Positions 23,567 through 29,029 of a stretch of DNA of 37,221 bases are shown here, one piece after another. The notes under the pieces were generated by a model. That model was not told the DNA's origin. It saw only the letters and a program-made list of their open reading frames with translations, and did not search any database. The number at the start of each line of letters is the position of its first letter. Positions within the stretch are counted from its first letter, which is position 1. The position numbers were made by a program, and so were the translations under genes. This stretch comes from an uncultured Rhodospirillales bacterium (lineage in GTDB: Bacteria; Pseudomonadota; Alphaproteobacteria; Reyranellales; Reyranellaceae): contig CAMFJT010000025.1 of assembly GCA_945957125.1 (NCBI GenBank), positions 1 to 37,221 of the forward strand, written 5' to 3'.

Positions 23567-23834
23567 GCTGACTTTGCCCTATTCTTATGGTGAGGTGGCG
23601 CCGCCATACGACGCGTCCCTACCGTCAATCATGACTAGGGCTTAGGAGTGTTGTCGACGGGCTCGGCTCCTCGACCGCATTCTCACAAGCGAGAACTCAA
23701 TGGAGGACACCGACCGCCAAAACTATCAAGCTGCCTGACCAGCATCCGGTGCGGCTTCTGCCAGTCGATTACCAACTCAGTCTAAGCGGGGCGTTCTATC
23801 TGAGAATAACTTCAATCTTATCCCCCCAAATTCC
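23567..23834. other. Intergenic left flank of the STAND-gene island
   Basis: These 268 bases lie between the convergent hydA and STAND genes. Composition drops visibly from the GC-rich hydA end to AT-richer sequence. No tRNA, integrase, insertion sequence, terminator-like hairpin or obvious att duplication is seen. A plus-strand open stretch around 23717-23900 without a plausible start could be the remnant of an older gene, but this cannot be shown. Confidence 0.5.
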
Positions 23835-26800
23835 TTACCAGTCCGGAAGGAAGTGCGCAGAGGGTGACTTGTCTCCGAAGAGATGGTCTTCGCGTTTCTT
23901 TTGAGTCTTTTCGATGCGACTTCCGATCGCGCGAAGCACGGTTGGTAGAAAGGCGCGATGCGTATTGCTTCTTACTCCCAACGTCTCGGACCAGATATCG
24001 ACGCGAAGGTCGACAATCTTGGCGAGCAGCACCGAGGCCTGCCAAAACTCCAACGGGGTCCTAGCGGATATCATCTGCCCGTACCAAGTGCGCGCCCAGA
24101 GGTTTCGCTCGTAGGCCTTGGTCGCCGCTTTCTGGGCAATACCGATATAGCCTTGCGCACCATTAAAACGGGAAAGAACACTTTCCGCATGGACACTTTG
24201 ATCAGAATATCCAGCGAGTGTCAGCGCTAAACATAAGTCGGCGGGCTGACCGGTCGTAAGCAAATCATCGATTGTGTCTTCGACAACGTTAGCCTTACCA
24301 TTCAGACAGGCAGCGAAGACTTCTAAGGCGATCTTGCTATCGTCTCGGCAGGTAACCAAGCGGCGCTTGCAAACATCTTGGAGTTCGGGAACATCAGCAT
24401 TTTCCCAGAGGTAAAGCGATTCTGCAGGCGCCTTCGCAACGCCCTGCACTCGATTGATTGCGGGCTCGATAGTTGCAAGCCGGGACAGCAGCCTTCTAGC
24501 GCCAGTATGCTTTGAAAGGATGACTGCCAGTTGCATTGCAAAGTGATGGAGGTAGCGCAGTTGAACATCTGTCGCCGCATTTAGTAATTCAATCCAATGC
24601 TCCCCTGCGCTCTCTTCCGCCTTAATAAGCGATTTTACACCTTCTAGCGTCAGGTCAGAAAGTACGAGGTTGGCGTCGGCCGTCGTGAGCTCTTTCCTGA
24701 AGCTATCAAAAGAACGTGCCATTCGGTCTTGTCGAGCATCAAACTGCTCATCTGTCTCTCCGAGACGGCCGAACTGATCCCCTAGATCCTGACTTGGCGG
24801 TGGATCGTTGAGCGAGATCAGCGGCGGCTTAGCGTCGGCCACATTCGGTGTCGAAGTTGTCATCTTCGGCAAGTTAGAGGTGTGCGAATACCCAAGCGCT
24901 CTGATGAGGGCCGCCTCAACGCGTTTTGCGATCGCGCTCGCGGCCGTTGGGCCTAGCGTCTGCGCAGCGAATCCATAATGATCAAGGTCCATGCGATCAA
25001 GAGCCTCATCAAGAGTGATAAGACCTGCCTTTGCGGCTTGAAGAATCGCCGACGAACCGTACCACCGCTCGAAAGTCTGCTTCCCATGACGTAAGGCACG
25101 GGCATCCCATCCGATTGCAACGATCGCCTTCAGTAGGTTCAGATCTCCGCTGGCGGCAGCAGCACCAAGCGCTTGAGTGCGCACACCATCGTCACTGGAC
25201 TCTAGGAGTTCCCGCACGATCGCGCGCGACCGCTGTGAGAGGGGAGGGTTCGAATACCGTATGGCGGCGAGAACCGCGCTTTGTTTATCGGTATCGGTCG
25301 ATTGGAGAATACGCTCAAGGATGTGCTCGGCGCCTTCTTCCGAGGCTGGACGCAGCGCAGCCAGAATATCGAGCAATACGGTGTTTCCTCCGATTCCCGC
25401 GATCGCTTCGAGCTGTTCGTCCGCCGGAAGGTGAGTAATCGCGGTAAAAATCAAATATTGAGCGGCAATCCACTCATCGCGATGATCCCTATGATCATCA
25501 TGCCTTGCAGTGCTGGCTTGCCCGGCTTTCAGGATGTTGCGCGCCTGTTGATCTGTTAGTGCGGCACTATGCTCTAGCAGGGTAAGAGCGCCCAGCCATC
25601 TGGCTAAGTCCGCTCTGTTCAGAATGTCATCAGCTAGAGCTCTATGAACTGCAACAGCGTCAGCGAGGTGAAACCGTGCGACGCCTGCCCGAGCCGTGTT
25701 GAAGAGCCTGTCTTCTGAGCCCGGACCCCTATGGGTTGCGAGCTTAGATGCGTCGATTGCGCGATACTGTGTTGCTGTCGTATCAACATTGTCGGGCTTT
25801 TTCGTGCCCGGATCGCACGGATCGACCTCGCAGTACTTCTCGACGAGCGACCATCCCAAGAACTTCTCACGATCTCTCGTGAGCCATTCGGCCAGGTCCT
25901 CGGCGCGCTTCGCGTCATCGACCGCCCCCGTTGCGCGCAAGATCTCAACGCTCGACCATTTACCAACGGTCGAAGAGTTGTCGCCGTCGAACGTCGTTAT
26001 CCATTTTAGAAGGCCCGCTTGCGTCTCGTTCCAATCCACGCGATTGAACCGAATAAGCTGCTCAAACTCCTTGCTTGGTGCATGGGTGGCTGGTCCAAGC
26101 GCGTTGGAGAAGCTCCATCTCACAAGATCGTCCGCAAAACCTTTTAGGTGCTTACCGGCAAGAAGGTAGAAGGCCGTGCGATGCAACGTATCCAAATGCC
26201 ACTTATTCGAAAGAACAAGATTTTCGTCGCGATACTTTCTCTCCACGCTGGTGAGGTCATTGACTCTCTTATCAATATCAGTCTGCCGCTTGTTCCGTTC
26301 CTCGATGACTTCGTTCTCGGGGTCGCGTCTGGGCGATTTGAACATTCTTCGTTCAGGGGCGAGCGAGTAATATGCGAGCCAACGCCGCACTGCGTCCGAG
26401 ATAGCTTCCCATACGAGCGGATTATCTCGATGCTTATGCAGTGCATAAAGTATCCAATCAGCATTCGGAATATGAGTCTCACTGGTGTATACGTTCTCAG
26501 CGGCTTCAAGGAAGGAGAGCGTTGCCGATCGTGCCAAAACAGCGAAGGCATCGGCCTCACTATTTGGAAGGTTCTGCAGCGAGACGAAGTGCTCAATCAG
26601 AGCGGATCGTGCCGGAGGACTCGCCTCTGCATCGAGGCAGGCAATCTGAGTGGCCAGGAAGACGACACTTGCTGTCTCATCAAGGGCGGTAATCGGTTCG
26701 AGGATAGTGGCGAGCCGCTCTCTTGGGTCCCGTTTGTTGCGAAGCTCCCTCTCAAGGGCACCGATTAACGAGAGCGCCAGTCCAAGGTTGAGACCGTCTT

Positions 26801-28427
26801 GCTTGACTTCGTACTTTGCACTGCTGCCCTTGACGGGTACAAAGAAGCGGGACGAGGCTACGTCTTGCAACCCTCTGTGGCTCTTCACATCAAAGAGACG
26901 TAGATCGTCAGTCTGCTGGTATTGCGCTCGTGTCAGGGTTTCGTTCGCAAGGTCCACGAGAAGTTCTGCAAACTCCAAACCCGACATTGGTGCCGCGCCT
27001 GTAGTCTGGGCCTTTCGCAGATGCTCAAACATTAGGCGCCCAACGCTAAGCTGATCGATAAGCTCGACATCGTTCGCGCTAAGAAGATCAATCGCGATCC
27101 CCAAGATCCTGGGATTGCGAAGCGACTGAAGAACGTCTGCCTTTACCTTGCTCACAGCGATGTTCCGACTCTTAAGAATCCCTTCCAACTCGACGATGGT
27201 CCATTGGACGACTGGCACTTCCACGACTCTGCAAGCAAGAGTGTTCTTCAGATGTGTCCAGTGCGTAGACCTTGTTGTGATGACAAGGCATCCACCCAGC
27301 TTCGCAAGCTCAGACGCCGTGTTGTCGAGCGTCTTTGACCAATCCGCCTTCAAAGGTTGATTGAGCCCATCGAAAACCATCGTCACACGAACATTCTTCG
27401 GAATGGGATTGGCACGCCATCCTTTAATGCGCCGACGCCATCTCTCCTTTGCACGTTCAGAGCGCTGCCCGCCCGTTTGTGCGATCAATTTGTCGATGAG
27501 AAAACTTTCAAAGTCGTTAGTGGCTTCAGGAGCGAGTAAGTCTTCGGCGGGACTAATGATGAGGATAGAGGCGGTGGTGCAAGCAAGCCACGTCGATGCT
27601 GCGAGCCACGATTTGCCGACACCTTCAGGGCCAATGACAGCGTAAATTTCTGCTGCGGCTTGCCCTGTAAAGGCGCTTGCTAGCTTCGCTTCCAGAGACC
27701 GCGCGATGCCTGCCAGACCAGACTGGTCGCGCGGCGCTAAAGGCTGGCCGAATGCAGCCCGCGCGGACACTCGACTCGAGAGCGTATCCGTCAACCACTG
27801 GCGATTGCGCACTCGAGCTTGCCCTAGTCCAGCCTCCTCAGCCGATAATGCAGTACGAAGGGCTGCAAGGCGTGCAGGTAGCGCGGGATGTTTCGTGAAA
27901 TGGTCAATCGCGAGAAGTGCATCTTTGGTTAAATGCGCTTTCGGTTTGCCCCTGAGGTTGTCAGCAATGAAGTCCTTTGCTCTCTGATTGGCGTGAACGA
28001 CAGCGACCAACAGCGCACCGAGATCGTTGTTGCTCCAATCGAGGAGAACTGCTCCGATTCCCGACTTCTCACAGAAGCCGCGAAGGCTGCTTGCAGTCTG
28101 TGCTGCCACCTCACACGACGCACCAAGAATCCAAAGGTCCACTTGTCCTGCATCATCCTGGATAAGGTCAAAAAGCTTCGCCGTAATCTCGGCTGGCTTC
28201 GGACTCGTGCGATAACGTTTGCCTTCGAAGTAGGTGGCACCACCATTGAAGGCGCTATCGCCATCGCGCCCGCGCTGCGACCCAGACTTGGCAAGGCGAA
28301 ACGATTGCCCCGTCACAGATGCGAGCACGATCCCCAGCAGCCCCTCAAAGCCGTTGGGACCTGAGTGATGAAGCGCAAGTAGCGCTTCACGTAAATTCTC
28401 GGAATGTTTCTTATCGGTTGTGTTCAC
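23835..28427 (-). CDS. Large STAND NTPase with N-terminal PD-(D/E)XK-like nuclease domain; putative Avs-type antiphage protein
   Basis: 1530 residues. The N-terminal ~150 residues look like a restriction-endonuclease fold: GFEGLL (E28), GRDGD (D55, D57) and YFEGKRY (E68, K70) form a D...ExK pattern, followed by VDLWILGAS. The NTPase region (about 230-470) has Walker A GPEGVGKS (266-273), Walker B VTMVFDGLN (D353), an ITTRSTHW sensor (R386) and an LRNPRILGIA segment near 436, as in STAND/NACHT ATPases. The remaining ~1000 residues are mostly helical. One stretch (about 1071-1103, SSDDGVRTQALGAAAASGDL) reads as a HEAT-type repeat, and a proline-rich linker follows near 1188-1215. There is no signal peptide or membrane segment. 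The start is a GTG (complement of 28425-28427) with a weak ribosome site. Base composition is clearly more AT-rich than all neighbours. By architecture it is a single-protein defence sensor: a phage protein is sensed, the NTPase oligomerises and the nuclease fires. The exact family is not recognised. Confidence 0.82.
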   Translation of the reverse strand: MNTTDKKHSENLREALLALHHSGPNGFEGLLGIVLASVTGQSFRLAKSGSQRGRDGDSAFNGGATYFEGKRYRTSPKPAEITAKLFDLIQDDAGQVDLWILGASCEVAAQTASSLRGFCEKSGIGAVLLDWSNNDLGALLVAVVHANQRAKDFIADNLRGKPKAHLTKDALLAIDHFTKHPALPARLAALRTALSAEEAGLGQARVRNRQWLTDTLSSRVSARAAFGQPLAPRDQSGLAGIARSLEAKLASAFTGQAAAEIYAVIGPEGVGKSWLAASTWLACTTASILIISPAEDLLAPEATNDFESFLIDKLIAQTGGQRSERAKERWRRRIKGWRANPIPKNVRVTMVFDGLNQPLKADWSKTLDNTASELAKLGGCLVITTRSTHWTHLKNTLACRVVEVPVVQWTIVELEGILKSRNIAVSKVKADVLQSLRNPRILGIAIDLLSANDVELIDQLSVGRLMFEHLRKAQTTGAAPMSGLEFAELLVDLANETLTRAQYQQTDDLRLFDVKSHRGLQDVASSRFFVPVKGSSAKYEVKQDGLNLGLALSLIGALERELRNKRDPRERLATILEPITALDETASVVFLATQIACLDAEASPPARSALIEHFVSLQNLPNSEADAFAVLARSATLSFLEAAENVYTSETHIPNADWILYALHKHRDNPLVWEAISDAVRRWLAYYSLAPERRMFKSPRRDPENEVIEERNKRQTDIDKRVNDLTSVERKYRDENLVLSNKWHLDTLHRTAFYLLAGKHLKGFADDLVRWSFSNALGPATHAPSKEFEQLIRFNRVDWNETQAGLLKWITTFDGDNSSTVGKWSSVEILRATGAVDDAKRAEDLAEWLTRDREKFLGWSLVEKYCEVDPCDPGTKKPDNVDTTATQYRAIDASKLATHRGPGSEDRLFNTARAGVARFHLADAVAVHRALADDILNRADLARWLGALTLLEHSAALTDQQARNILKAGQASTARHDDHRDHRDEWIAAQYLIFTAITHLPADEQLEAIAGIGGNTVLLDILAALRPASEEGAEHILERILQSTDTDKQSAVLAAIRYSNPPLSQRSRAIVRELLESSDDGVRTQALGAAAASGDLNLLKAIVAIGWDARALRHGKQTFERWYGSSAILQAAKAGLITLDEALDRMDLDHYGFAAQTLGPTAASAIAKRVEAALIRALGYSHTSNLPKMTTSTPNVADAKPPLISLNDPPPSQDLGDQFGRLGETDEQFDARQDRMARSFDSFRKELTTADANLVLSDLTLEGVKSLIKAEESAGEHWIELLNAATDVQLRYLHHFAMQLAVILSKHTGARRLLSRLATIEPAINRVQGVAKAPAESLYLWENADVPELQDVCKRRLVTCRDDSKIALEVFAACLNGKANVVEDTIDDLLTTGQPADLCLALTLAGYSDQSVHAESVLSRFNGAQGYIGIAQKAATKAYERNLWARTWYGQMISARTPLEFWQASVLLAKIVDLRVDIWSETLGVRSNTHRAFLPTVLRAIGSRIEKTQKKREDHLFGDKSPSAHFLPDW

Positions 28428-29029
28428 AGGCCTACGCTACAACGGTCTTGATTGTGCCAGCCAGTAAAAACACCCGCTAACAATTTTTCATAGCGCTTCA
28501 ATTCCTCAGAGCAACCATTCAAGCGATCTCTGACGCAAAGCGCTCATCGCCCTTCTGGATCGGGGCTTGATCCTATCTCGACGTCTCCTGCGGACGACGT
28601 TATGCTTCAACCATGCACATCAAGCTTTACCTTTGCGCCTTTGTTATCGGCAGCTACGCAGGGGCCTTGAATGCAGGAGGCGCAGCCTGATCCAAGGGGA
28701 CTACGGGCGGGTCGTCTTCGTCAAGGAGCGAAACATCAGGGTTATTCGTACGGACCCGCCAAGCGTCGCGAACGACGAGTTTATACTTGCCGATCGGGTC
28801 TTGGGGCGGGCACGACGGCCCTTCTCCAAGCGCGATGAACGGGCGCACGGTTCCGGCGCTGAGGAGGCTCGAAGCCGACGAACCGCCCCGCGTGGGGAAG
28901 CAACGGGTCAAGTGAGTTGGCATTGGCCTGACAGATTGCGCCACACCGGGTGCCGTGAAGCGAAGGGCCGCATCGAGGCTTTGCGACACTGCGCATCCGG
29001 GTATGCCGCGCACGATCGACGATGACGGA
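28428..29029. other. Gene-poor right flank of the STAND-gene island
   Basis: About 600 bases between the STAND start and the hydrolase stop, AT-richer near the STAND gene and returning to high GC by about 28870. It must hold the STAND promoter, but no convincing -35/-10 pair was found. Two weak coding candidates exist. One is a minus-strand open frame ending at 28654 (tail containing IGKYKLVVRDAWRV). The other is a 25-codon plus-strand frame at 28613 whose product looks like a bare signal peptide (MHIKLYLCAFVIGSYAGAL). Neither has a clear ribosome-binding site or a family match; they may be remnants. No tRNA, integrase or transposase is present. Confidence 0.5.

Follow-up and report, generated by a model that had tools for sequence, protein, structure and literature searches.

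STAND antiphage proteins have been described as single polypeptides with a C-terminal sensor, a central oligomerising module and an N-terminal effector (PMC12169576). Avs1-3 sense the terminase and Avs4 the portal (PMC12724215), Avs1-4 carry nuclease-based effectors and Avs5 senses a jumbo-phage protein (PMC12931631), while bNACHT25 and bNACHT32 degrade DNA on infection through an N-terminal PD-(D/E)XK domain whose active-site Asp is needed for defence (PMC12169576). DSR2 binds the phage tail tube protein via its HEAT-repeat and C-terminal regions (PMC11263360), and DefensePredictor has added 31 further validated systems, of which 13 have PD-(D/E)XK and 7 P-loop nucleoside triphosphatase (NTPase) domains (PMC13092281). 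Here, we compare with these systems a single gene encoding a 1530-residue protein in a 37,221-nucleotide stretch of DNA (hereafter the window) from an uncultured Rhodospirillales bacterium (contig CAMFJT010000025.1). An earlier note on this DNA had put the gene forward as a candidate antiphage sensor, a reading that is strengthened by the homology of its N-terminus to Mrr_cat nucleases, by the defence and mobile context of its homologues and by the lack of any Avs model match. We consider it likely that the family to which it belongs consists of Avs-like nuclease-STAND single-protein antiphage sensors, with abortive DNA cleavage as the predicted outcome. Profile homology, invariant catalytic residues, acquisition as a single gene, sporadic presence and the defence neighbours of homologues underlie this reading.

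Nuclease-like head, STAND module and C-terminal region

The open frame has exactly the coordinates that the earlier note gave without a strand. It lies on the minus strand, with a GTG start at 28427, 1530 codons and a single stop, and the plus-strand reading of the same segment is full of stops. The GTG start is supported, since the family consensus starts at the same residue. The parts of the gene and of the insert that carries it are the following:

23835..28427, minus: whole gene of the 1530-residue nuclease-STAND protein (frame reading and family consensus start)
27978..28427, minus: residues 1-150, predicted Mrr_cat-type PD-(D/E)XK domain with E28, D55, E68 and K70 (hhalign, Pfam and motif census)
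28218..28265, minus: predicted catalytic stretch D55 ... E68-x-K70 (187 of 187 members with letters there)
27018..27680, minus: residues 250-470, predicted STAND (NACHT-like) NTPase module (hhalign; NACHT over the Pfam cut-off in member P0101)
27609..27632, minus: Walker A, residues 266-273, GPEGVGKS (K272 in all 188 members readable there)
27357..27371, minus: Walker B, residues 353-357, DGLNQ (Q357 in 178 of 188 members; DGINE or DAINE in Avs2)
23838..26990, minus: residues 480-1530, long C-terminal part with a presumed sensor role (no family model reaches its cut-off)
25125..25328, minus: HEAT_2-like stretch, about residues 1034-1101, below cut-off (Pfam scores)
23569..29029, no strand: 5461-bp low-GC insert between convergent genes (GC content; not present at this site in same-genus relatives)

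Residues 1-150 of the family aligned by hhalign with a profile of 16 Mrr_cat domains taken from related genomes at 96.3% (E 1.6e-9) over 106 columns (residues 20-133), the alignment pairing the catalytic residues of both sides; the control values were 0.1 to 1.0% for six other family slices and 0.1% for the reversed template. When 30 N-terminal domains were scanned singly, Pfam Mrr_cat was found at E<=1 in 11 of them (best E 1.4e-4) and the runner-up family in just four. Mrr_cat was also weakly matched, below the cut-off, in members P0080 and P0098, and the PADLOC Aga_REase model was matched by one member of 30 (E 2.3e-4). E28, D55, E68 and K70 occur together in all 185 members that have letters at the four positions (189 aligned). 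In the D55/D57...E68-x-K70 pattern read by the earlier note, D55, E68 and K70 stand as given, being conserved in 187 of 187 members with letters there, whereas D57 varies. The nuclease-like head proposed there is borne out by this controlled profile–profile comparison, from which we assign residues 1-150 to the Mrr_cat-type PD-(D/E)XK nucleases, with DNA cleavage as the predicted activity. Two matches of the N-terminal domain in a structure database (E 0.45 and 1.1) were to unrelated proteins and were judged spurious.

For the central module, residues 250-470 aligned with a six-row STAND/NACHT set, in which one row is an Avs2, at 96.9% (E 1.4e-10), against 0.1% for the reversed set and at most 0.2% for six other family slices, the nuclease slice included. 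Taken singly, members of this set gave 96.0% for Avs2, 64.3% for one NACHT protein and 0.5% for a clear NACHT protein (L137). The same residues aligned with a profile of three Avs2 proteins at 96.4% over 176 columns. The P-loop core was correctly placed in the earlier note at Walker A 266-273, D353 and R386, and it is conserved across the family, K272 and D353 being present in 188 of 188 members and R386 in 178 of 188. Given this constancy, neither these residues nor D55, E68 and K70 are chance features. Judged by Walker A, Walker B and the sensor Arg, the module belongs to the STAND NTPases. Its membership of NACHT (PF05729) is borderline: among six members scanned, the distant P0101 reached 28.4 bits, P0100 26.6 and P0080 25.1 for a cut-off of 26.7. 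For the window protein itself NACHT is not listed, and a search of the window genome with this model gave no match.

The Walker B motif reads D-G-x-N-Q, with N356 in 185 of 188 members. Its last residue is Gln in 178 members (Q357) and Glu in the other ten, and the three Avs2 sequences compared have Glu at the equivalent place. The exchange between Glu and Gln probably occurred more than once, since the ten Glu-bearing members differ widely in their identity with the window protein (26, 33-34 and 43-47%). In other P-loop ATPases, Gln at the place of the Walker B Glu slows ATP hydrolysis. As Gln replaces the Glu of Avs2, hydrolysis may be slow or absent here, which suggests, by analogy, weak ATP hydrolysis in most of the family.

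Residues 480-1530 gave no Pfam family over the cut-off. The earlier note had claimed at least one HEAT-like repeat; one HEAT_2-like stretch is indeed present, but its scores of 15.7 bits (hmmscan) and 22.2 bits (genome search) both fall below the cut-off of 27.7, and a Cnd1 match at residues 1015-1058 is also below the Pfam cut-off. With no repeat over the cut-off, we do not class the protein among HEAT-repeat proteins. Two designed TIM barrels matched residues 792-845 (25893-26054, minus strand), with E of 6.8e-6 and 5.9e-5 using one profile and 0.0012 and 0.081 using the other; this match is probably due to chance. Other solved structures, an oxysterol-binding protein (E 0.029) and one further protein (E 2.3), were likewise judged spurious. 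Conservation peaks at residues 1-100 and 551-600, and is lower yet retained in the tail.

A search with residues 580-1530 as query, in which 7989 candidates of 0.55-1.75 times the query length were scored, returned 87 other proteins, of which 81 have the nuclease motif. Of the other six, five have starts internal to the protein; the sixth starts shortly before D55 and keeps the D...E-x-K. No member with another effector was found among these 87 proteins and, because the start positions explain the six motif-less cases, we conclude that no effector swapping is found.

STAND modules are switches rather than motors, which bears on one alternative. Since the head is of the Mrr_cat family, the protein might be a Type IV-like restriction factor, in which the Mrr-type head would cut modified invading DNA recognised by the protein itself, with the STAND module as motor or gate. 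However, the NTPase matches STAND modules and Pfam recognised no DNA-binding domain in the tail, and we regard this alternative as very unlikely.

Comparison with Avs, bNACHT and other described systems

Avs4 combines an Mrr-like nuclease with a STAND ATPase in a protein about as long as that of the window. The family has the same order as the Avs proteins, namely an N-terminal effector, a STAND module and a long C-terminal region to which we assign a putative sensor role. It might thus be a divergent true Avs (Avs2 or Avs4), drifted beyond the models and sensing the same terminase or portal, and the alignment of its STAND module with that of Avs2, together with the weakly Mrr_cat-like N-terminus of Avs2 itself (45.8%), speaks in that direction. 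However, the nuclease part and the tail of Avs2 fail to align with the family (at most 2.1% and 2%, respectively), its Walker B ends in Glu in the three sequences compared where the family mostly has Gln, and none of 30 diverse members matched a PADLOC Avs model at E<=0.01, the Avs4 model included. The PADLOC Avs4 (1570 positions) and Avs5 models found nothing in the window genome either; Avs4 was compared by its model only. The test for Avs3 was uninformative, as the Avs3b model was silent everywhere, control genomes included. Because no Avs model matches and only the STAND module aligns with Avs2, we keep the family apart from Avs, in line with the suspicion voiced in the earlier note that its clade is undescribed, and consider a true Avs to be improbable. 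NCBIfam returned nothing for the window protein, and no PADLOC family matched it at E<=1.

In the window genome, the Avs2 model matches another gene and not the 1530-codon one. A 2106-codon frame of this genome (L179, G000:C113:13732-14103) matches this model with E 2.1e-9 in its ATPase part, model positions 342-463.

The family resembles bNACHT25 and bNACHT32 (bNACHT clade 6) in having a PD-(D/E)XK head and a NACHT-like ATPase, a comparison made by description only. In these two the C-terminal domain is an NCH1, and sensing depends on the host chaperone DnaJ (PMC12169576), whereas the family has about 1050 unmatched residues after the ATPase. DSR2 and Dsr1 are large single-gene sensors, as the family is predicted to be, and Dsr1 adjoins a family gene at one locus (L004), but their effector is an NADase and no STAND module figures in the available part of the DSR2 description (PMC11263360). 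The Mrr_cat restriction endonucleases (PF04471) share the catalytic domain family of residues 1-150; in the related genomes, however, Mrr_cat proteins lie in open frames of 238-640 codons, too short to hold a STAND module plus a tail of a thousand residues. The family is filed neither as Avs nor as bNACHT, the DefensePredictor systems having been compared by description only. Among the papers listed by full-text searches, judged by title and start of abstract and with no search by accession, none is about the family.

Probable acquisition of the gene and neighbourhoods of its homologues

The GC content is 54.9% in the gene and 55.3% in the 5461-bp stretch 23569-29029, against 68.5% in the remaining window. 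The 1530-codon gene is the sole long gene of this insert. On the two sides of the insert lie facing genes that we name from sequence reading, hydA on the plus strand and, on the minus strand, one for an isochorismatase-like hydrolase. The 1530-codon gene was found in 0 of 36 same-genus genomes, whose completeness is 73-100%. The hydA orthologue was present in 15 of 18 same-genus genomes searched, and in nine of these 15 the right-flank sequence lies 8 to 926 bp from hydA, leaving too little space for the gene; note that in three of the nine (G005, G009 and G013) the right-flank match starts only at the gene past the hydrolase. One other (G018) holds 4156 bp of other genes at this spot, one amidohydrolase-like (L096:850-5007), and the remaining five gave no right-flank match within the stretch fetched. 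From its absence in the 36 genomes and the closeness of the flanks in relatives, the gene was most likely gained, alone, between two converging genes. An insertion hotspot is not supported; one relative (G018) holds other genes there. The insert ends show no target-site repeats of note, and a scan for promoters gave 1 site (2.0 in shuffled sequence) and one for terminators 5 (5.2 in shuffled sequence). By eye, a long GC-rich inverted repeat is seen in the gap of two relatives.

The neighbourhoods of homologues were surveyed at 45 loci found in a scan of species genomes, taking up to two open reading frames (ORFs) of >=150 residues per side within 5 kb, that is 146 ORFs from 43 loci (two had none). 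With E<=1e-8 as threshold, set A4 (67 ORFs) matches 59 PADLOC models (E down to 0) and set A5 (79 ORFs) 221, related models being counted separately. With the 25 most frequent models of each set listed, the systems named include Avs2, Dsr1, a type III methyltransferase, PD-T7-4, Lamassu LmuB, SoFic, Hachiman HamA/HamB, AbiE, type I-F Cas with TniQ, RT_I-B, type II restriction–modification and XamI, with weaker matches to GajA, AriA and mad proteins. Two neighbours were looked up singly by name: the one in L004 is Dsr1, the one in L021 Avs2. The control consisted of 80 ORFs from 20 places, each lying between 44 kb and 2.3 Mb along the contig from one of those 20 loci, out of 45, that have long contigs. 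They matched 23 models: GajB (UvrD-helicase) 17 times, ZorB (MotB) three times, and RTasHel, mad3 and AriA once each. The weaker mad, AriA and GajA matches of the neighbours count for little, because control ORFs match such models too.

Mobile DNA also carries the family. Among 72,556 plasmid records 12 match, six of them over at least 80% of the protein; distant relatives on Sphingobium plasmids align solely across residues 15-807. One plasmid copy, 26% identical, is accompanied by HamA and a PD-(D/E)XK gene, another by SAVED and XamI genes, and a distant relative by VapC, RloB and an integrase. The lone copy on a viral contig (L090:1-12578) adjoins a tyrosine-recombinase-like gene, and a Zot-like gene of filamentous-phage type is read further on from the translation. 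The family thus stands beside defence genes and on mobile DNA, as the earlier note would have it. Copies on plasmids and the one beside a recombinase-like gene could also mean that the target is plasmids or other mobile elements, or their spread, rather than phages; however, the strong neighbour matches listed are antiphage or restriction systems, and we find such a target quite improbable.

Two further genes recur next to the family. A second large family (1708-1782 residues), which has a Walker A site and, near the N-terminus, a nuclease-like Q-x-K without variation, adjoins the family gene in five of 45 loci, with a fragment in L038. By frame calls it is on the same strand and 22-293 bp away in four of the five. 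The two copies scanned singly (L001 and L023) gave no Pfam or PADLOC match. Its positions are:

L001:4622-9748: second large protein
L011:14868-20216: second large protein
L030:4592-9919: second large protein
L031:3292-8517: second large protein
L023:4339-9564, minus: second large protein

A DUF4238-type gene (234 residues) is convergent with the family gene at four loci of sphingomonad type and is followed in two loci by a related second gene, DUF4238 being matched by seven of the 79 set A5 ORFs:

L029:9951-10655, minus: DUF4238-type gene
L033:14639-15343, minus: DUF4238-type gene
L037:14639-15343, minus: DUF4238-type gene
L045:11033-11737, minus: DUF4238-type gene

With the 1.7-kilo-residue protein in five of 45 loci and DUF4238 in at least four, we rejected the idea of a fixed partner gene. 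We also considered, as a rather doubtful proposal, that the family forms a separate branch of NLR-like immunity in bacteria, with one fixed effector, a natural Glu-to-Gln change in Walker B that would make ATP binding a one-way latch and, in some genomes, a head-to-tail sensor–helper pair with the unrelated, nuclease-STAND-like 1.7-kilo-residue protein, as in plant paired NLRs.

Proposed mechanism, counter-evidence and spread of the family

For an Avs-like nuclease-STAND sensor, we propose that the tail would bind a phage-made protein, that the STAND module would then bind ATP and oligomerise, and that the nuclease heads would then cut DNA, so that the infected cell stops. This order is adopted because Avs and bNACHT proteins are described so (PMC12169576, PMC12724215, PMC12931631). 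Through the Walker B Gln, ATP binding may act as a one-way latch, with hydrolysis slow or absent. This Gln would offer a direct test of whether STAND immune receptors need ATP hydrolysis or only binding. If the family defends, it would be a large uncatalogued receptor family of at least 419 proteins, found in Pseudomonadota and, going by record labels, in five or more further phyla, and its trigger would extend known phage patterns such as terminase and portal. The window copy being alone and outside any defence island, the gene is of a kind missed by island-based searches.

Several observations weigh against this reading. In the nuclease head, Mrr_cat was missed in 19 of the 30 N-terminal domains, that of the window protein included, whose own domain gave only an unrelated weak match to nsP3_ZBD (E 0.037); the window protein alone matches no Pfam model at the cut-off. 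For the STAND module, the three Avs2 proteins taken singly scored unevenly (96.0, 72.2 and 12.8%), the full-length family profile met one whole Avs2 in the same region at only 10.7%, and six non-Avs2 neighbour proteins cut at their first Walker A-like site, which in two (Dsr1 and L043) may be no true P-loop, ranged from 0.2% up to 83.0%. The uneven single scores and the 83.0% control mean that, although the module is assigned to STAND with Avs2 among its nearest kin tested, this kinship appears not to be exclusive. In the neighbourhoods, the tallies count PADLOC models and not loci with a defence neighbour, and the control was not empty, with RTasHel at 3.9e-25 (its best), mad3 at 1.1e-24 and AriA at 3e-13. 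None of 50,697 phage records matched, and among viral contigs only one copy was confirmed by a scan with two exact patterns, which would miss divergent members. Finally, the window gene itself has, by sequence reading, metabolic-type genes as neighbours and no defence gene adjoining it.

Such a position between metabolic-type genes would suit a non-defence STAND regulator or a host DNA-repair protein. Against this stand the absence from all 36 same-genus genomes, the foreign GC content, the invariant nuclease residues and the defence neighbours of homologues, and we hold it to be extremely unlikely. A characterised non-defence role of close homologues, which the earlier note named as a ground for dropping the antiphage reading, was not described for any homologue among the matches listed. 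Where the sources give a name at all, it is 'hypothetical protein', 'NACHT domain-containing protein' or 'P-loop NTPase family protein'; among the same matches, a few are precomputed as PF13191 (AAA_16) or PF05729 (NACHT) and most are without mark.

A whole-protein search of 5.8 billion proteins returned 97 relatives besides the protein itself at E<=1e-3. With a profile of ten diverse members, which scored 7989 candidates (120 listed), the family comprises at least 419 proteins, the window protein included, a figure to be read as a lower bound. The 45 loci are mostly from Pseudomonadota, the other record labels being Spirochaetia, Bacteroidales, Gemmatimonadota, Desulfobacteraceae, Deltaproteobacteria and Arthrobacter, with one Manganitrophus plasmid. 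Judged by frame calls, L031, L034, L041, L043 and L044, five of the 45, seem to hold broken or incomplete copies.

A tree of 39 rows was built from the window copy and 38 of the 45 loci (omitting L023, L025, L031, L034, L041, L043 and L044), several rows being bins of uncertain label. It holds a well supported clade of short branches that joins Desulfobacteraceae, Myxococcota and Bacteroidota rows, and it groups Halomonadaceae with one Rhizobiales row. Such clades mixing phyla are compatible with transfer between lineages. Over all groups, the count of phylum changes is the same as with shuffled labels (200 of 200 shuffles as low). The 'Arthrobacter' copy (L037) is very near a Sphingomonas copy and has the same neighbour at 97% identity; as both copy and neighbour nearly match Sphingomonas, this record is probably mislabelled or mixed.

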